From Planctomycetota bacterium (GTDB lineage Bacteria > Planctomycetota > Phycisphaerae > Phycisphaerales > Phycisphaeraceae): a stretch of 64,000 nt of DNA. A program made the translations under genes and the position numbers. Numbering within the stretch: position 1 is the stretch's first letter; each line of letters starts with the position of its first letter. The DNA is taken from contig JAJRXX010000052.1 in NCBI GenBank assembly GCA_024276075.1, forward strand, positions 1-64,000, in the 5' to 3' direction. Shown here piece by piece: positions 53,449-61,577 of this stretch. Below the pieces are notes generated by a model that did no database searches, was not told the origin of the DNA, and was given only the letters and a program-made list of their open reading frames with translations.

Positions 53449-54093
53449 GTGGAAGGCCGACACGTGGACGCCCAGAACCGTGAACATCTGATTCGAGAGC
53501 ATATCGAGGAAATCCGTCGGCTCGAGACGGGTTCTGTCGACGCGGTTGAGCCTGCTCGTGCATCCGCCGGTTGGCCCCCAGACGGGTATTACCTGCTCTG
53601 GCATGTGGTGGTGGGGATGATGCTGGGATTGATCGGGTCGCTGGTGAGTCTGCTCGCCAATGTTTTGGGAGCACCCCTGTTTGGAAAACCAGCCCTTGAG
53701 TTGATCCGGGTGTACCTGACTTTTCCGATGGGACAGCGAGCGTTGTACGCCGACGATGGGGTGATCCTTTTTGTCGGCTGCGTGTTGTACCTGTGCACCG
53801 GCGCGGTCTATGGCAGCGTGTTCCATGTGGTGATGAGTTCTCTCTTTGTCGAGGCATCGGCGGTCAAGCGATTTGTCGTCGCGACCGCGATCGGGCTGGG
53901 GCTGTGGGTAGTGAACTTTTACCTGATACTTAGTTGGCTTCAGCCGATGCTGCTGGGCGATAACTGGATCGTGCGTCTGGTGCCGGTGTGGGTGGCGGTG
54001 CTGACACACATGGCGTTTGCCTGGACAATGCTCGCTTTAGAGTCCCGGGGCCGTTTCGAGAGGCCGCGCCTAAGCGGGCCTTCTGATGCTTGA
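53449..54093 (+). CDS. Uncharacterised membrane protein of the cbb3 locus
   Basis: 214 residues. A charged N-terminal region of about 45 residues (REHLIREHIEEIRRLETG) precedes four hydrophobic segments at roughly residues 47-72, 100-130, 140-165 and 172-198, with aromatic-rich helices (GLGLWVVNFYLILSWLQPML). No cofactor motif is visible. The family is not recognised. It lies between the Fe-S protein and the dihaem cytochrome, with 21 bp to the latter, so a role with the oxidase is inferred from context. The GTG at 53449 follows a G-rich stretch. Confidence 0.75.
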   Translation: MEGRHVDAQNREHLIREHIEEIRRLETGSVDAVEPARASAGWPPDGYYLLWHVVVGMMLGLIGSLVSLLANVLGAPLFGKPALELIRVYLTFPMGQRALYADDGVILFVGCVLYLCTGAVYGSVFHVVMSSLFVEASAVKRFVVATAIGLGLWVVNFYLILSWLQPMLLGDNWIVRLVPVWVAVLTHMAFAWTMLALESRGRFERPRLSGPSDA

Positions 54094-54114: not shown

Positions 54115-55275
54115 ATGTCCGAGAAAATAAGTTCAACCCGTCTATCTTCGGCCCGTAGGCCAATCCTTTGGGGTTGGCTGCGGCGCCCGTGGTTAGCGGT
54201 GTTTTTGTTTGCCGGGGTCTTGATGGCTTTGCTGGGTGCGTCAGGTCAAGGCGACCGAGACGGTGATAAGGTGGTCGCGGCCAACGACACAGCGGATCGC
54301 GAGAGCCCGCATCCGACCCCAGCCGATCCCCGTTCGGCAAACTATAACCAATGGCGCACGAACGAACCGGGTGAATACCGGAGATATAACCAGCGTGCGA
54401 GCCTTTTGCAGCGTGGCAAAGGGGTGTACGCGAAATACTGTGTCGGCTGCCACGGAGCAAACGGTGACGGTCAAGGACCGGCTTCGGTAAGGCTTATTAC
54501 CAAACCTCGCGATTTCACCAAAGGCATCTACAAATTCCGATCCACCGATTCGGGTAGCTTGCCTTTGGAATCAGACTTGCACCGAACGATCGCCAATGGG
54601 CTGTCGCGCGTGAGCATGCCGGCGTTTCCGCTAATGCCCGAGCAGGAGAAGGTAGCGGTGATCGAGTACATTAAGTCGTTCTACCCCGATTGGGAGAAAG
54701 AAAAGAACAACCGAAAAATCGTATCGATTCCGACGGCTCCACAAGACCTGGATAAACAAGAGCGGGTCCTGCGTGGGCGGATTGTGTATCTGGCGATGCA
54801 GTGCGGCAAGTGCCACGGCAGTGATGGGGCTGGCACGGGGGCAACACAAACCGAATATACCGACGCGTGGGGCAACCCGCAGAAGCCTTTGAATTTTACC
54901 CGTGGCAGTCTCAAAGGTGGCGACAACCCGGAAGACATTTTCCGCACCTTCCATACGGGCCTTCGCAGCATCATGCCGGGGTACGGCGGGGTCACGCTAG
55001 CAGCGGTGAATATCGAGACGTTTGAGTCTCAAAAGAGCTATCTGCGCGAGGGCGAGCTTGAACAACTGGACCCGTACCTCGAATCGTTTCCGAAAACAGC
55101 CAGCGAGGTATTTACCCAGATGGATGAATCTCAGCGACAACAATTGGTGAAGCGTAATAGCTGGGACTTGGTCGCGTATGTCTTATCCCTGCAACAAAAA
55201 TTCTCAACCGCGCAAGCTGTATTGGGACAGCCTCGGTCCGTACCACGCAGCGACCTGAACGGGGAGACCCCATGA
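54115..55275 (+). CDS. Membrane-anchored dihaem cytochrome c (CcoP-like)
   Basis: Carries electrons to the oxidase. 386 residues. One membrane anchor at about residues 25-41 leaves the rest periplasmic. Haem c motifs are CVGCH at 109-113 and CGKCH at 230-234, each in a cytochrome c fold with Met candidates in SMPAFPLMP and SIMPGYGG. It occupies the place of CcoP but stands before ccoN, unlike the usual N-O-Q-P order, and is longer than CcoP. The stop overlaps the ccoN ATG as ATGA. Confidence 0.88.
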   Translation: MSEKISSTRLSSARRPILWGWLRRPWLAVFLFAGVLMALLGASGQGDRDGDKVVAANDTADRESPHPTPADPRSANYNQWRTNEPGEYRRYNQRASLLQRGKGVYAKYCVGCHGANGDGQGPASVRLITKPRDFTKGIYKFRSTDSGSLPLESDLHRTIANGLSRVSMPAFPLMPEQEKVAVIEYIKSFYPDWEKEKNNRKIVSIPTAPQDLDKQERVLRGRIVYLAMQCGKCHGSDGAGTGATQTEYTDAWGNPQKPLNFTRGSLKGGDNPEDIFRTFHTGLRSIMPGYGGVTLAAVNIETFESQKSYLREGELEQLDPYLESFPKTASEVFTQMDESQRQQLVKRNSWDLVAYVLSLQQKFSTAQAVLGQPRSVPRSDLNGETP

Positions 55276-56738
55276 CCCGAATTGATTCGCCTTCACCCGC
55301 AGCCGCCGGTGTCAATCCCGTGAGTACGTCGCCGACCGGGCGGCTTGTCAATACGACATTGGTCAAGTGTCACCTCGTCGCAGCGGTATTCTGGTTTACG
55401 ATCGCGTTGTTTGCGGGTCTGTTTTATTCTCTACAATTGCTTCAGCATTGGCCGTTGCCAAAAATCGCGGTGCTGTCGCCTGGCCGAATCCGGATGATCC
55501 ACACGAACCTGATCGCGTTCGGGTGGCTCACCAACGCGTTCCTGGCCATGCTGTACTGGACGGTCCCGAGGCTGACGGGCAAGCGTGTGGCGCACAACGT
55601 GCTGGGGTGGGCGATCTGGGTCGCGTGGAACGCGATTATTTTAGCGACGTACATCGGTCTGCACTTGGGTCAAGCCCAAGCGGTCGAGTGGGGTGAGACG
55701 CCGGTATGGATCGATCCGGTTGTTGTAGCCGGGGCGATCCTGGTGTGGATTCAATTCTATACCCCGATCGTGCGCAGCACGGAAAAGGCGATGTACGTGA
55801 GCTTGTGGTACTTCACCGCGGGGTTTATCTGGCTGGGGCTGACGTACATCATGGGCAATTTTTTTCCGGAATACCTAGTGGCGGGCAGCGCGGCGGGTCC
55901 TTTGCTGGGTCTGTATATCCACGATTTGGTGGGGCTTTGGGTGACGCCGATGGGCTGGGGGATGATGTACTTCTTCGTCCCGATCCTTCTGAAGAAGCCG
56001 ATCTGGTCGCACGCGCTGTCGCTGGTGGGGTTCTGGGGGTTGGCGTTTTTCTACCCTCTGCAGGGGCTTCACCATTTCCTGGGTTCGCCGGTCCCGATGT
56101 TTGCTCAATACAGCGCGGTGGTGAGCACGATCGCGATCGAGATTGTCGTCACGACCGTGGTGATCAATTTCTTTATGACATGGCGGGGCAGCGAAGGCGC
56201 ACTTAAGAACAACATAGCCATCCGTTGGTTCTGGGTGGGCGCATTGAACTACGCCATCACCTGTTTTCAGTGCGCGTTCCAGGTCACGCTGACGTTTCAG
56301 CAGGTGATCCACTTCACCGATTGGGTCGTTGGGCACGCACACCTGGTGATGTTCGGGGTGTTCAGCTTCTGGATATTCGGGATGATCGAACACCTGTGGC
56401 CTAAGCTGGTCGGGCGGGATTGGTGGAGCGTGTCTCTAAACCGGTGGCAGTTCTGGCTGATCACGATCGGGCTGGGTGCGATGTTCCTGACGCTGACCGC
56501 TAGCGGGATCGCTGAGGGGTTTATGGCGATGCAATTGTCCCCGCGCGAATCGATTCTGGAGATGGTCCGCCCGTTTTGGATAGTCCGCACGATCACGGGT
56601 TTGGCGATCATCAGCGGGTTCGGCTGCCTTGTGGTGAACATGGTGATGACTGCCTGTGTTGCGAAGACCAAGCACATCGATGTCGATTACGAGCCTTATG
56701 AGCCGATCGAAAATGAGGTGACGGTTGGAACGGTTTAG
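55272..56738 (+). CDS. ccoN: Cytochrome c oxidase cbb3-type subunit I
   Basis: Catalytic subunit reducing O2 to water with proton pumping. 488 residues, about 12 helices. The ligand set is complete by comparison with known CcoN: His77 and His357 (low-spin haem b), His355 (haem b3), His217, His267 and His268 (CuB), and Tyr261 six residues before the His pair, the cross-linked tyrosine. Key stretches are RMIHTNLIAFGW, YIHDLVGLWVTP, YPLQGLHHFLG and VVGHAHLVMFG. It overlaps its upstream and downstream neighbours, so is translationally coupled. Confidence 0.96.
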   Translation: MTRIDSPSPAAAGVNPVSTSPTGRLVNTTLVKCHLVAAVFWFTIALFAGLFYSLQLLQHWPLPKIAVLSPGRIRMIHTNLIAFGWLTNAFLAMLYWTVPRLTGKRVAHNVLGWAIWVAWNAIILATYIGLHLGQAQAVEWGETPVWIDPVVVAGAILVWIQFYTPIVRSTEKAMYVSLWYFTAGFIWLGLTYIMGNFFPEYLVAGSAAGPLLGLYIHDLVGLWVTPMGWGMMYFFVPILLKKPIWSHALSLVGFWGLAFFYPLQGLHHFLGSPVPMFAQYSAVVSTIAIEIVVTTVVINFFMTWRGSEGALKNNIAIRWFWVGALNYAITCFQCAFQVTLTFQQVIHFTDWVVGHAHLVMFGVFSFWIFGMIEHLWPKLVGRDWWSVSLNRWQFWLITIGLGAMFLTLTASGIAEGFMAMQLSPRESILEMVRPFWIVRTITGLAIISGFGCLVVNMVMTACVAKTKHIDVDYEPYEPIENEVTVGTV

Positions 56739-57573
56739 CTTTATTTTTCTGGTAGCGGGTTTGCTGTTCTTCTCGGTGGCGTTCGCGATCGCTGGGTGGA
56801 TCCCGACGCTGTCGCTCCAAGACATGGAGGTGCGCACGGTCGAGCAGCTAGCCCAACAGCCGCCTCTGGACTTTATTGAGATGCGTGAAGAGTACCCCGA
56901 AGCCTTTAAGAAGGCGTTTGGAGATACGAGCTTGGAAGGCGCGTTCGAGCAGGCACTGCGCTTAGGTCACCGTACTTATATTGCCGAGGCTTGTTGGCAC
57001 TGCCACTCGCAGCAGGTTCGGCCTTGGGGCAATGATGAAGCGAGGTACGGGGCGCTGAGCTACCCCGAGGAGTACCACAACGAGTTGAACATGCCCCCGC
57101 TGTGGGGCACGCGCCGCATCGGACCCGACCTGATCCGTCGCGGTGGCAGGCAGTCGAACGATTGGCACGTGGCGCATTTCTACCACCCCCCGGACGTCAA
57201 CCCACGGAGCGTGATGCCCGATTATCCCTGGTTTTATGAAAAAGACGGGATCACCCCCAACAAGATCGGGCTGTCGATCATCGCGTATGTCCAGTGGCTA
57301 GGCAGTTGGCAGCCGACCCGTCAAGAGACGATCCATCAACTGCCTGCGATCGATCGCAGCTATCCAGAACCCAATATCATCGGTCGCGGAAAAAACACCC
57401 TGTCTGTAGAGGCTGTTGAAGCGCAGCCGGATGCCGACGATGAATATGAAGACGACGAGTATGATGATGAGTACGACGACGAAGAAGACGGATATGGAGA
57501 CGGAGATTATGAGGATGAATCTGAAGACGAAGATTACAGCGATGAAACCGAGGATGATGAGTACGGGTATTGA
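56725..57573 (+). CDS. ccoO: Cytochrome c oxidase cbb3-type subunit II with acidic Tyr-rich tail
   Basis: Monohaem cytochrome c subunit. 282 residues. An N-terminal anchor (residues 5-25) is followed by the haem site CWHCH at 90-94 in EACWHCHSQQVRPWGNDEARYG, then RRIGPDLIRRGGR and SVMPDYPWFY with the Met ligand. Residues 236-282 form an unusual tail: 30 of 47 residues are Asp or Glu and 8 are Tyr. Normal CcoO ends before this. The TTG start at 56725 overlaps the end of ccoN by 14 bp. The tail could dock a basic cytochrome or bind calcium or copper; that is speculation. Confidence 0.93.
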   Translation: MERFSFIFLVAGLLFFSVAFAIAGWIPTLSLQDMEVRTVEQLAQQPPLDFIEMREEYPEAFKKAFGDTSLEGAFEQALRLGHRTYIAEACWHCHSQQVRPWGNDEARYGALSYPEEYHNELNMPPLWGTRRIGPDLIRRGGRQSNDWHVAHFYHPPDVNPRSVMPDYPWFYEKDGITPNKIGLSIIAYVQWLGSWQPTRQETIHQLPAIDRSYPEPNIIGRGKNTLSVEAVEAQPDADDEYEDDEYDDEYDDEEDGYGDGDYEDESEDEDYSDETEDDEYGY

Positions 57574-57635
57574 CAGCCCCACGCCCGTGTGTGAAACGGA
57601 GATTCCGGTCGTATTTTCAAAGAGCGAGATAGGTC

Positions 57636-57980
57636 ATGATTAGTTTAAACTCCGACGCCCAAGCGGTGCATCAGCGATCGAATGACCCGGCGGCATCACC
57701 CCGGGCGCGGGTGTTTTTGTGGGCTTTCAGTGTGGCGATGGTGGTGACGGCTGGCGGTGCGTTTATCTTTAAGTTGTGCGATTTTTATATCACCGCTACT
57801 ACACAGGGGCCTGGGGCTCTCGCGTCGTTTCTGATCCCGGTGCTCAACTACCTGATCGTCGCGCTGGGCTTTGCGTGCCTGTTTCTGTGGGCGTATTTTT
57901 CGGGCCAATTCCGGGACATCGAAGCCCCCAAGTACCGCATGCTTGAGATGCAACAAGAAATCGATGGTGAGGGAGGTTAA
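57636..57980 (+). CDS. ccoS: CcoS/FixS-like oxidase maturation protein with extra N-terminal segment
   Basis: 114 residues. The C-terminal half, LFLWAYFSGQFRDIEAPKYRML, closely follows the FixS/CcoS pattern (a helix, then SGQFDDL, then a terminal hydrophobic YRIL-type end). CcoS is normally about 50 residues; here an additional helix (residues 27-50) and a 25-residue soluble start are present. CcoS assists insertion of haem b and copper into CcoN. It is spaced 62 bp from ccoO and followed by a small membrane peptide. Confidence 0.65.
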   Translation: MISLNSDAQAVHQRSNDPAASPRARVFLWAFSVAMVVTAGGAFIFKLCDFYITATTQGPGALASFLIPVLNYLIVALGFACLFLWAYFSGQFRDIEAPKYRMLEMQQEIDGEGG

Positions 57981-58157: not shown

Positions 58158-58284
58158 TACGCGTCGGCGTGTGTTTGGGCCGCGTCGTATAGACAATAAG
58201 CATTTGTGACATCTGATCGGGTGTAGAAGGGCAGTCGGACAATACTTAGGGTGATTGCATAACCGCGGCAGGCGGTTCCCCGAC

Positions 58285-60696
58285 ATGGCTTTGTTAACCA
58301 CCAAATCGGAACCGGGGATTGCGGGGGGTGTGCACCACACGGGTGTTGAATCGTTATGTGTTCACTGCGGTCTTCAGATCCCGCGGGCACGGCGAAGGGG
58401 CGGTCATGGTGCGCGGTTCTGTTGTTTTGGCTGTCGATTTGCCTATGGATTAGCCCAGCCGAGCGAGGGGAGTTTCCCAAATACTTTCGGTGTCGATCAC
58501 TCCGACGCGATCAGTGACGGGGCGAACACGTTGTTGTTGCGCCTGGGGTTGGGCATCTTCCTGGCTATGAACATTATGGTCTTTAGCTGGGCGTTTTATT
58601 CGTGTGAGTGGTACACTCAGGGCACGGGGCGTCACGATTCGCTGGCAGGGTTGTTCGCCTATCTGCTGTTGTTGTTAAGCACGGTTTTGATTGCGGCGTT
58701 GGGTATGCCTCTTGCGGCCGACGCGATGGGCCAAGTGTTTACCCCCGACCGTACCCTCGGAGCCACCTCCGCAAGACCCTTGGGAATACGAAACCGGGGC
58801 TGTGCTGCTGGTGTTCTGAGTTGGCTGCGCGCCGTTGGGCGTGTCCGCTTGGACACGAATGCACTAATCTGTATCGGGGTCGGCGGCGCTTATCTGATTA
58901 GTGTGATTCACACGTTGCAGGGCCGGGGTAGTCTATATTACGACACGGCGGCGATGATCCTGGTGCTGGTGACACTGGGGTACTTTCTTGAGTCTGCAGC
59001 CAAACGTAAAGCTTCGGGCGTGGCCCGCTCGTTGATGGAACCGCTCGCGCCCCGGGTACGTGTGCGGCGTCATGGTGAAGAGGTCCACATCAAGTCGGAC
59101 CAAGTCATCGTCGGGGATCGTGTGTATACCCGTGCAGGGGAGTGCTTTGTTGTGGACGCCTTGGTCGTTGAAGGGGCCGGTCGCGTGGATGAGTCTAGCC
59201 TCACAGGTGAATCTCAACCTCGGAGCGTAGAACCGGGACACGCTGTATTGGCAGGGACCGTCAACCTCGATGGGCCGTTATGGACACAAGCGCAACGGGT
59301 CGGTGATGATCGTGTCATCCATCAGACACAGCGTCTCTTAGAGGAAGCTCGGATGCGTCAACTGCCGATCCAGAGATTGGCTGACTGTGCCGCGTCTGTG
59401 TTTGTCCCATCGGTACTGGTTTTGACAGCGGGTGTGCTAGTCTGGCACGCGATTCACGGAGATGCTACGCGCGGGTTGTTCGATGCGTTAAGCGTGTTGC
59501 TGATAAGTTGTCCCTGTGCGCTAGGGTTGGCCGCTCCGCTTGCTGCGTGGAGCGCGTTGCGTCGTGCTGCCGAACACGGGGTCATTATAGATTCAGCGGC
59601 AACACTTGAACGGATCGCCACGATCGATCGTGTGTATTTTGATAAGACCGGAACGTTGACCCAGGGCTATCTAAGTCTGCATCAAATCGTCGTAGCGGAC
59701 GGGATCGATCAGGACCAGGCCTTGCGATGGGCCGCGGCTTTGGAGGCAACGAGTGTCCATCCGATCGCTCGATCACTCGTTGCGGAGGCACAACAACGCG
59801 GTTTGAAACTGCCCAGTGTAGGTGTCGCCAAAACTTTACCGGGCTTGGGCGTGGAAGCACGGATCGTGGATCAAATGATGAGATTAGGCAGCGCCAGGCT
59901 AGCTGACTCGACCGGGCTAAACGTGACACCGTTTGATGAAGCTTACCTTTCTCAAGATGCTTCCAATGGCACTGCCGTGGCGTGCACAAAGATATATCTA
60001 CTCGACGCCAGCCGCGTCCTGGCACGCTTCGACTTAGCCGAACAGCTGCGCAATGAGGCAGCCGAAGCTGTGGTTCGGCTCAAAGAAATGGGGATCGCCG
60101 TCGAGATGCTCTCGGGTGATCAGCCGGCTCCAGCCAAGCAAATAGCCCGATCATTGAATATCCCATTTGAAGGGGCTCTGTTGCCGGCGGAAAAAATTGA
60201 GCGGGTTGCAGACGCCCAGCGATGTGGCGGGCGCGTAGCGATGGTCGGTGATGGGATCAACGACGGGCCGGTACTAGCAGTCGCCGAGGTGGGATTTGTG
60301 ATGAGCAGCGGGACGGATTTAGCCAAGCAAGCCGGACACGTTTGGTTGTTGGTCGATCGGCTCGACCGCATCCCGATGACGATAGCGATCGCGAGGCATT
60401 GCATGAAACGGGTGCGGTTGAACCTGGCGTGGGCGTTCGGTTACAACCTGATCGGGCTGACACTGGCGGCCGGTGGTTTGTTGACGCCTATCATTTCGGC
60501 ATTGGCCATGATCGCGTCGAGCCTGATGATTGTTGCTACCTCTCGCAGCGCGGGCCGTATTCACCAAGCCGACGATCTCGCAAGGACCATTCCTACAAAA
60601 TCCGAAAACGAGCGAACGGTGTCGCCATCGGAGTCGAATAATCTTAAGGATCGACCACGGCCCGTGATGGGACAAACCATTGTGTCACAGGTGTAA
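58285..60696 (+). CDS. ccoI: Copper P1B-type ATPase for cbb3 oxidase assembly
   Basis: Exports or delivers copper for CuB assembly; 803 residues. The N-terminus has a treble-clef-like Cys cluster (CVHCG at 25-29, FCCFGC at 45-50) typical of CcoI-type pumps, but no separate HMA domain follows before the first helix. Core motifs are TGES in DESSLTGESQP, the CPC metal site at 409-411 (ISCPCALGLAAPLA), DKTGT starting at 453, SVHPIARSL, and VGDGINDGPVL. The ATG at 58285 is preferred; the open frame can be extended ten codons to 58255. The TauE/SafE-like gene follows 8 bp later. Confidence 0.92.
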   Translation: MALLTTKSEPGIAGGVHHTGVESLCVHCGLQIPRARRRGGHGARFCCFGCRFAYGLAQPSEGSFPNTFGVDHSDAISDGANTLLLRLGLGIFLAMNIMVFSWAFYSCEWYTQGTGRHDSLAGLFAYLLLLLSTVLIAALGMPLAADAMGQVFTPDRTLGATSARPLGIRNRGCAAGVLSWLRAVGRVRLDTNALICIGVGGAYLISVIHTLQGRGSLYYDTAAMILVLVTLGYFLESAAKRKASGVARSLMEPLAPRVRVRRHGEEVHIKSDQVIVGDRVYTRAGECFVVDALVVEGAGRVDESSLTGESQPRSVEPGHAVLAGTVNLDGPLWTQAQRVGDDRVIHQTQRLLEEARMRQLPIQRLADCAASVFVPSVLVLTAGVLVWHAIHGDATRGLFDALSVLLISCPCALGLAAPLAAWSALRRAAEHGVIIDSAATLERIATIDRVYFDKTGTLTQGYLSLHQIVVADGIDQDQALRWAAALEATSVHPIARSLVAEAQQRGLKLPSVGVAKTLPGLGVEARIVDQMMRLGSARLADSTGLNVTPFDEAYLSQDASNGTAVACTKIYLLDASRVLARFDLAEQLRNEAAEAVVRLKEMGIAVEMLSGDQPAPAKQIARSLNIPFEGALLPAEKIERVADAQRCGGRVAMVGDGINDGPVLAVAEVGFVMSSGTDLAKQAGHVWLLVDRLDRIPMTIAIARHCMKRVRLNLAWAFGYNLIGLTLAAGGLLTPIISALAMIASSLMIVATSRSAGRIHQADDLARTIPTKSENERTVSPSESNNLKDRPRPVMGQTIVSQV

Positions 60697-60704
60697 CCCG
60701 AACC

Positions 60705-61577
60705 ATGATGACAGTCGATGGCACACTTAACTTTTTTGCAATTTATAGCTCATTATTTATCGCTGGGCTCGCTGCCAGCCTTCATTGTATCGGGATGTGT
60801 GGCCCGATTTTGCTGGGCTTTGCTCAGGTGTTTGAGCGCACCACGTTGACCATCAATGGGCAGTCAATCGCCGGTGATCGTAGTGCCCAACAAACCCGTT
60901 CATTGATCGGAGACTTCGCCTGTTACCACGCCGGTCGCATCTGGACCTACGCATTGCTGGGGTTCGGTGCCGGGCTGCTAGGGCAAGGCATCCGTGACAG
61001 CAGCGCCTACCTCGGATTGCAATTCCCGCTAGCGATCGCCATCAGCGCAACGGTCATCGTGAGCGGGGTATTGCTGCTGGGTGTCTTGCCCATCGGAACA
61101 ATCAACGTATGGCTGGCCGGTTGCGGCGCCGGGAAGCTGACCGAAAATAAATGGTTAACCAAGCTGACCCACAATCGTGGGTCGATCGCCCGATTGCTAC
61201 TGGGCGTGGTCATGGGGCTTTTGCCTTGTGGGATGGTCTACACGGTACTACTTGTTGTTGTAGCCATGCCCACACCGTTGCACAGCGCCGTGGGCATGAT
61301 CATTTTTGGACTCGGTACGCTTCCCTCGTTGACCGGTGTATTGCTGGCCTATCGCGTGGTTCCCCTCCGATTCCGTGCTCACGGTTCGCGGTTGGTTGCT
61401 GTTATTATCATTATGGCGGGGGCTTGGATGATGGCCCGAACGCTGATCGTGTCGTCACCCTCGAACCATGACAGTGCGTACCACACTTGTCACAGCCATG
61501 TTCTGGGTAGGTTCGACACACAACCGTATGGTTCAATTATTCGGTCGAGCGGCGAATCCGATGTATTTCGAGATTAG
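60705..61577 (+). CDS. TauE/SafE-family (CcoH-position) membrane protein
   Basis: 290 residues with about six helices. The motif LHCIGMCGPILLGFA near the N-terminus and LLGVVMGLLPCGMVYTVLL in the middle define the sulfite-exporter/cytochrome-biogenesis-like family that commonly accompanies ccoI and aids oxidase or copper maturation. The last 35 residues (HTCHSHVLGRFDTQPYG onward) are hydrophilic. The final codon and TAG stop lie at the edge of an inserted repeat element, so the natural C-terminus may have been replaced. Start is ATG 60705 or 60708. Confidence 0.82.
   Translation: MMTVDGTLNFFAIYSSLFIAGLAASLHCIGMCGPILLGFAQVFERTTLTINGQSIAGDRSAQQTRSLIGDFACYHAGRIWTYALLGFGAGLLGQGIRDSSAYLGLQFPLAIAISATVIVSGVLLLGVLPIGTINVWLAGCGAGKLTENKWLTKLTHNRGSIARLLLGVVMGLLPCGMVYTVLLVVVAMPTPLHSAVGMIIFGLGTLPSLTGVLLAYRVVPLRFRAHGSRLVAVIIIMAGAWMMARTLIVSSPSNHDSAYHTCHSHVLGRFDTQPYGSIIRSSGESDVFRD

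Follow-up and report, generated by a model that had tools for sequence, protein, structure and literature searches.

A predicted disordered acidic tail on a planctomycete CcoO recurs on unrelated respiratory proteins and probably marks a docking site for a common electron carrier

A FixO/CcoO-family subunit encoded by a Planctomycetota bacterium ends in a strongly acidic tail dotted with tyrosines and predicted to be disordered. Because such a tail is also found on unrelated respiratory proteins, it probably marks the docking site of a common electron carrier. The analysis started from a window of 64,000 nucleotides (assembly GCA_024276075.1, contig JAJRXX010000052.1, positions 1 to 64,000 of the forward strand), to which coordinates refer unless a locus is named, and was extended to related genomes. 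We give odds of about one in two to the view that this tail forms a disordered tether, on the side where electrons enter a cbb3 oxidase, for the docking of a shared basic carrier, similar in its working to mitochondrial Qcr6.

Results

The tailed CcoO and its operon

The window carries on its forward strand an operon which, judged by the ligand residues in its sequence, encodes a cbb3-type (C-family) oxygen reductase. A hydrophobic 214-aa protein (53449-54093; orthologues in 10/12 relatives), for which there was no family match in Pfam or NCBIfam, is followed by a CcoP-like dihaem cytochrome c (54115-55275; Pfam Cytochrome_CBB3) and a CcoN-like catalytic subunit (55272-56738; Pfam COX1). The latter aligns over residues 24-470 with the solved cbb3 chain 9g6b_A, including the His residues that we take to be the haem and CuB ligands and the presumed active-site Tyr of helix VII; its score against NCBIfam ccoN was 169.8 bits and the cut-off of 583.15 was not reached. 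Downstream of ccoO lie the genes for a FixS-like small membrane protein (57636-57980; Pfam FixS), a copper-type P-type ATPase (58255-60696; profile matches) called CcoI-like from its operon position, and a DsbD-like membrane protein (60705-61577; Pfam DsbD_2). The names ccoG, CcoI and the like are presumptive and reflect similarity and place. In 12 relatives of the same order the ccoP-like, ccoN, ccoO, fixS-like, ATPase and dsbD-like genes stood together in 12/12 cases, two of them split into two frames each (ccoN at L035, the ATPase gene at L042). The fixS-like gene adjoined ccoO in all 12, as its relatives do in nearly all operons read. The FixS-like protein of the window has 114 aa vs a profile length of 44-51 and contains an additional hydrophobic stretch.

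The tailed protein itself (56725-57573, forward strand; 282 aa, TTG start) had been named CcoO in the preliminary description of this DNA, and the match to PF02433 (FixO; 109 bits, cut-off 29.6) bears this out at the level of the CcoO/FixO family. It contains CWHCH at residues 90-94 and a helix at residues 5-29, and ccoN overlaps it upstream. As the score of 99 bits against the NCBIfam ccoO equivalog TIGR00781 lies under the cut-off of 200.65, we place it in the broader FixO family only. The family core, delimited by Pfam FixO, an AlphaFold model and Foldseek, spans residues 1-195 (56725-57309) and comprises the N-terminal membrane helix and a mono-haem c domain, with WLGSW at its end. It is followed by a segment that is conserved in the clade of tailed proteins (residues 196-219, 57310-57381, including ETIHQLPAIDRSYPEP), of which family f5 has its own version, and by a variable linker without predicted structure (residues 220-235, 57382-57429), both defined from an alignment of related CcoO proteins and the tails of 21 members. 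The acidic, Tyr-dotted tail makes up residues 236-282 and, with the stop codon, 57430-57573; its last residues are DDEYGY and it is kept in kind across the clade.

In the AlphaFold model, calculated with 34 aligned proteins as input (mean pLDDT 68.6), the membrane helix 5-29 and much of the core were obtained with fair confidence, while residues 195-282 had no secondary structure and a pLDDT of about 41-59 per ten-residue block. The top four Foldseek matches to this model were CcoO chains, including 8smr_F and 9g6b_B. The protein shares its core, haem c motif and operon partners with the solved cbb3 CcoO chains (3mk7_B, 9g6b_B, 8smr_F); its sequence aligns with them only over about residues 67-173, and it has 87 residues beyond WLGSW. 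As part of this flexible 87-residue extension, the tail, for which a site near the haem c entry point had been suggested, has no fixed place. The structureless tail comes after a single membrane helix at the N-terminus and the haem c domain, so that the strongly negative periplasmic tether proposed beforehand is its natural reading; the known topology of CcoO would put it on the periplasmic side.

Residues 236-282 (57430-57570; stop codon 57571-57573) read DADDEYEDDEYDDEYDDEEDGYGDGDYEDESEDEDYSDETEDDEYGY. The extreme acidity and the 8 Tyr among 47 residues had been reported correctly, the number of Asp/Glu being 31 and not 30; Lys and Arg are absent. Against the 8.1% share of Asp/Glu in the operon's proteins the binomial chance of such a run is 6e-23, and for Tyr it is 5e-5, figures that serve as a rough yardstick since the stretch was selected because it is extreme. 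A microsatellite is ruled out by mixed codons (GAT 9, GAC 8, GAA 8, GAG 5, TAT 5, TAC 3) and by the output of a tandem-repeat finder, which gave a single row with a 15-base unit in 1.9 copies. A frameshift near the tail, or lack of the tail in relatives, had been named as grounds for dismissing it. Neither was found: the alignment of CcoO proteins runs unbroken across WLGSW into the YPEP stretch (residues 196-217), and the extension is present in 12/12 aligned relatives, which together with the mixed codons rules out a frameshift or an assembly artefact. A hydrophobic antisense frame (57298-57582, reverse strand) can be read as a shadow of the acidic and Tyr codons. Codons for DEY[DE]D-like stretches, searched as a DNA pattern, occurred at 5 places in the genome, 3 of them within the CcoO tail, one in a short frame and one in an unrelated-looking protein.

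Distribution of the tail

The extension beyond WLGSW was seen in 13/13 loci of the order (the window and the 12 relatives), and a search of 350 genomes of this order gave the same 13 again. With 8 Acidobacteriota loci among the best 80 of 408 relatives taken from a scan of named genomes, the tailed clade comes to 21 distinct members; the remaining close named loci match contigs already among these. In 396 genomes from the phylum of G649 we found 4 clade members, of which 3 were already known and 1 stands at the place of L050. Alignment of related CcoO proteins, suggested earlier as a check on conservation, showed that the acidic aromatic make-up is retained across the clade. Beyond residue 22 of the tail, the net charge was -3 or lower in 20/21 members, the exception (L053) having a short tail with net -1. 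An aromatic residue was found among the last six in 17/21 tails (shuffle mean 9.0), and [FYW]G occurred 21 times (shuffle mean 7.0); neither value was attained in 5000 shuffles, in a set whose members are related. The length of the tails varies greatly. They contain no Cys, no Met and about one His per 650 residues, a composition that argues against a role in handling copper.

A quick tree of 74 CcoN proteins, which omits four short rows (including L060 of the tailed clade) and three loci without ccoN, united the 19 tailed rows in one group (SH-aLRT 99), for which one change is needed. Planctomycetota and Acidobacteriota are intermixed in this group, and the operon was thus probably transferred between phyla. 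At the 61 other loci of the best 80 of 408 relatives, CcoO stops 0 to 50 residues past WLGSW. A strict test for an acidic-aromatic tip, which misses tails that contain Lys or are poor in acids at the very end, was passed by CcoO at 10/19 loci of the tailed clade vs 2/61 others. No tail was present in the 16 fused CcoNO proteins of the same order that were read (their last 47 residues hold 3-12 Asp/Glu and 0-2 Tyr) or in three unfused CcoOs of the same family (6-7 Asp/Glu in the last 47 residues). Among 22 untailed genomes with a CcoO match, none of the 19 ends read was tailed, G008, G041 and G047 standing outside this count.

The CcoP-like subunit of the clade is also distinct. Its distance from MPxY to the C-terminal helix was 56-66 residues in 18/18 tailed-clade proteins, vs 8-22 in the 26 of 53 other CcoP-like proteins with a recognised helix (our pattern found none in 27/53); long spacers belong to the genes of the window (54115-55275) and of L048-L058, L060, L061, L077, L078, L082, L083 and L095. 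A related planctomycete clade lacks such tails on CcoO and has an acidic-aromatic tip of the EEFIEDE type on CcoP instead. The strict test was passed by CcoP at 12/55 other loci (L065, L089, L093, L098, L099, L106, L107, L109, L112, L116, L119, L125) and 1/18 of the tailed clade, and by 0/391 other flank ORFs; CcoO and CcoP are not alone in passing, as 2/19 tailed-clade CcoN and 4/59 FixS-like proteins elsewhere passed it too. Two tailed-clade loci, L057 and L060, have the tip on both subunits when judged by eye. The tip may have switched between CcoO and CcoP. Docking of the tail to the CcoP-like subunit by bulk charge was rejected, as the charge of the latter showed no trend with the tail (rho 0.10, p 0.42; Mann-Whitney p 0.60). 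Charged positions specific to the clade in the CcoP-like protein were 9 basic vs 3 acidic, which is only suggestive of docking.

Similar segments on other respiratory proteins

The tail had been taken as peculiar to this CcoO, a view that did not hold: in the same genome, similar segments are carried by CoxB and by a multihaem and a dihaem cytochrome. We sampled 458 kb of this genome, including the window and partly chosen for cytochromes, and obtained 357 ORFs of at least 80 aa (longest non-overlapping frames). At least 12 Asp/Glu in 24 residues with at most one Lys/Arg were found in 3/357, namely CcoO, the dihaem cytochrome and a cytochrome with eight CXXCH motifs. This amounts to 3/8 CXXCH-bearing ORFs, of which 6 were judged to be cytochromes, vs 0/349 others (Fisher 7e-6). 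Outside the operon, searches of the genome with cytochrome c families yielded the dihaem protein on C14, the 8-CXXCH protein and a monohaem protein on C34. In the dihaem protein, EEPDDEYDEYGEDEDE links the two haem domains; the 8-CXXCH protein (1782 aa; L199:5964-11309, reverse strand), whose gene adjoins those of an aa3-type oxidase, has the acidic segment EEDEEDYGYDDEEEEDYGYGDEDE. CoxB of this aa3-type oxidase ends in YLDLGDEDEGY.

CoxB was surveyed at 30 loci, with 55 genomes matched. In the 17 closest relatives, none with a fused cytochrome c, the final residue was Tyr or Phe in 15/17 and the last 15 residues held 3-12 Asp/Glu in 16/17, that is in all but L228, which has no tip; L226 has an acidic end with an internal Tyr. 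CoxB of the caa3 type differs from them in its fused cytochrome c domain, which follows the CuA domain at the very place of this acidic-aromatic end (present in 16/17). An aromatic final residue was found in 0/13 CoxB with fused cytochrome c, of which L237 passes a looser tip test. In the multihaem cytochrome an acidic-aromatic segment was present in all 17 genomes read (G018 was unreadable, G010 is cut by the contig), directly after the last recognised CXXCH in 14/17. The proteins of G016, G025 and G032 have one CXXCH fewer and the segment at a similar residue number, that of G025 nearly without aromatics. G028, G007 and G027 have a weak version of the segment, with a best net acidity of 8-9 in 24.

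The segments are spelt alike within a genome. In family f5, DPYG appears both in the multihaem protein and in CcoO, except in G052 (DEYG, DAYG), and G044 and G056 have DPYA as well. G024 has DGFGD and DPF in CcoO and the multihaem protein and DDGF in CoxB; the genome of the window uses DEYGY, DYGY and DEGY, and G025 has nearly pure Asp/Glu in all three proteins. For the comparison, multihaem segments were picked by a score of acidity and aromatic-Gly applied uniformly over genomes, CoxB pieces were cut manually (G025 being represented by its tipped C406 copy), and relatedness among the genomes, many of them metagenome assemblies, was handled by thinning. Mean similarity of CcoO and multihaem spelling was 0.60 within genomes vs 0.38 in permutations of the genome labels (p = 5e-5, n=12; 7e-4, n=8; 9e-4, n=7). 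CoxB and the multihaem protein gave p 0.02 (n=11), 0.02 (n=7) and 0.002 (n=7), and CcoO and CoxB a borderline 0.06 (n=11), then 0.014 (n=7) and 0.007 (n=7). The longest peptide common to CcoO and the multihaem protein had 3-10 residues (DPYAEEDPYG in G056), and for each of 12 genomes at least 41 of 200 synonymous recodings had common DNA as long as the longest observed. In none of the 12 did this recoding test point to gene conversion from one of the two genes to the other. As spelling is common where, so far as the recodings show, DNA is not, the likeness arose at the protein level.

A Lys-tailed cupredoxin as candidate partner

A gene located between coxB and the multihaem gene encodes a 264-aa protein with the C-terminal end GPKKKK; another copy, on C3, has nine Lys and Gln at its end. 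The signal peptide of the 264-aa protein, judged by eye, suggests export. The type-1 copper ligands His149, Cys187, His190 and Met193 (Cys-x2-His-x2-Met) are invariant in 13 aligned proteins. Profile matches to cupredoxins are weak: copper nitrite reductase at E 4e-4, amicyanin at E 5e-3 and, at E up to 1 in Pfam, Copper-bind in 3/13 and Cupredoxin_1 in 4/13 members (best 0.0023). The strongest match, NOMO2 (E 3e-12), is due to the C-terminal transthyretin-like domain. Amicyanin, a type-1 copper carrier, has a C-x2-H-x2-M ligand loop. The candidate has this loop and an upstream His in common with it, and beyond amicyanin an added N-terminal part, the transthyretin-like domain and often a Lys end. 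The C-terminal domain of the 1782-aa cytochrome is related to the cupredoxin-like protein encoded next to it (L199:4966-5757, reverse strand).

The cupredoxin gene stands beside coxB for 16 of the 17 closest CoxB relatives, the exception (L228) being the CoxB without a tip. At E < 1e-40 the protein was found in 13/13 genomes with a tailed CcoO vs 5/48 others (Fisher 1.3e-9, or 1.2e-8 when two weak matches are counted among the others). The number of Lys at its end rose with the acidity of the CoxB end (rho 0.64, p 0.008, n=16; thinned 0.62, p 0.03, n=12) and of the multihaem segment (rho 0.60, p 0.013, n=16; thinned 0.72, p 0.008, n=12); for the CcoO tail, with some paralogues left out, the relation was not significant (rho 0.53, p 0.06, n=13; 0.55, p 0.13, n=9). 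In several tailed genomes the cupredoxin ends with 0-2 Lys. G025, with three coxB copies, is a natural control with a mixed outcome. On C406 the neighbouring cupredoxin ends in 11 Lys and CoxB in a long acidic run; on C335 there is neither a neighbouring cupredoxin nor a tip; and on C339 a KKKKNK-ended cupredoxin is adjacent to a CoxB without an acidic tip, whose acidic-aromatic stretch is internal only. No cupredoxin was seen in the flanks read for the Acidobacteriota members. Two small cytochromes c of the window's genome, with lipoprotein-like starts and a pI of about 8.6, are alternative carriers.

Discussion

These observations are most simply explained if the segments signal where a periplasmic partner common to the proteins docks. 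Several periplasmic redox proteins that are unrelated to each other carry acidic stretches with interspersed Tyr or Phe, in many cases with Gly next: CcoO, CoxB as the CuA subunit, the multihaem cytochrome and, in the genome of the window, the dihaem cytochrome. The stretches would recruit one shared basic mobile electron carrier. By binding it they would concentrate it locally where electrons are donated and accepted, in the manner of the mitochondrial hinge protein with cytochrome c. We favour a mobile carrier because the segments sit on the haem c and CuA entry subunits and on the donor cytochrome, and because of the mitochondrial precedent. The leading candidate would be the amicyanin-like cupredoxin with its Lys-rich C-terminus, whose gene is mostly found beside coxB; to name it as the partner goes a step beyond proposing a mobile carrier. 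A motif common to unrelated proteins, whose spelling changes jointly between genomes without signs of copying of DNA, points to selection for a common partner. More tentatively, we can imagine a code that extends over the respiration of these Planctomycetota, and perhaps of the Acidobacteriota that share the oxidase. An acidic-aromatic-Gly motif with lineage-specific spelling would evolve concertedly on unrelated redox proteins (cbb3 CcoO or CcoP, aa3 CoxB, multihaem and dihaem cytochromes), serve one basic Lys-tailed blue-copper carrier, and be absent where CoxB has fused a cytochrome c of its own.

Alternatively, the tails might be low-complexity linkers that drift in exported cytochromes and act, without any partner, as spacers or as aids to solubility; they would then resemble each other through the amino-acid habits of the genome. 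Their disorder in the model, their greatly varying length and the nearly tailless L053 agree with this. Such linkers would, however, hardly keep an aromatic near the end and [FYW]G more often than shuffled sequences do, or Tyr/Phe as the last residue in most unfused CoxB; nor do they account for the common motifs, which are whole and go beyond composition, or for the lack of such a segment in every non-cytochrome ORF among the 357 sampled. We therefore consider drift rather unlikely, though the most serious competitor of a docking tether.

Less likely still, the segments could bind one another or a common scaffold and hold the donor and the oxidases in a supercomplex or condensate, with Tyr as stickers and no mobile carrier. 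Tyr and Phe spaced along an acidic, Gly-containing sequence would suit this, as would the similar spelling of donor and acceptor proteins within a genome. All segments are acidic, however, and should repel each other unless a cation or basic partner intervened, and a cupredoxin with a basic end in many genomes is encoded beside nearly every one of these coxB genes. Binding of calcium or another hard cation, stabilising the complex or serving its assembly, would fit the dense carboxylates and the near absence of Cys, Met and His, yet leaves the aromatic tip and the common spelling unexplained; we regard it as very improbable.

In our view, it is poorly understood how a single carrier is directed to several oxidases in bacterial chains. 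For the docking tether the nearest precedent is mitochondrial. According to PMC11413003, residues 41-73 of the yeast Qcr6 loop are about 90% Asp/Glu and predicted to be unstructured, and the loop becomes structured on contact with the positively charged carrier cytochrome c; the same paper describes the Qcr6/UQCRH hinge protein and a C-terminal segment of yeast Qcr9 as likewise unstructured, mostly Asp/Glu and in contact with cytochrome c. The CcoO tail, strongly acidic, located on an electron-transfer protein and given a structureless, low-confidence prediction, matches the traits of such peptides. It may work like the hinge protein, but we do not class it as a relative of that protein and claim no homology. 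Whereas Qcr6 is a subunit of mitochondrial complex III, the segments described here are carried by oxidase subunits and cytochromes, as tails at the C-terminus or as inserts, and they differ further in their Tyr/Phe-Gly dots, their genome-specific spelling and a cupredoxin as candidate carrier. Among the literature matches listed, seen as titles and abstract openings and with most subscription journals outside their scope, none dealt with acidic CcoO or CoxB tails or with a poly-Lys cupredoxin partner. The motif offers a readable list of possible electron-exchange partners. If the Lys-tailed cupredoxin is indeed the partner, paired charged tails would deliver electrons, a simple and testable principle that reaches beyond the mitochondrial hinge protein.

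Two further observations concern the genome of the window. The dihaem cytochrome with the acidic linker is encoded at L185:3450-6150 (forward strand) next to genes for a small monohaem protein and for a protein whose match to a porin is weak, a neighbourhood that is possibly a separate electron path. In the window itself, a stop-to-stop frame of 10,335 codons (12029-43033, forward strand) with GGxGxDxLxG-like repeats encodes a giant protein and takes up about half of the 64,000 nucleotides.
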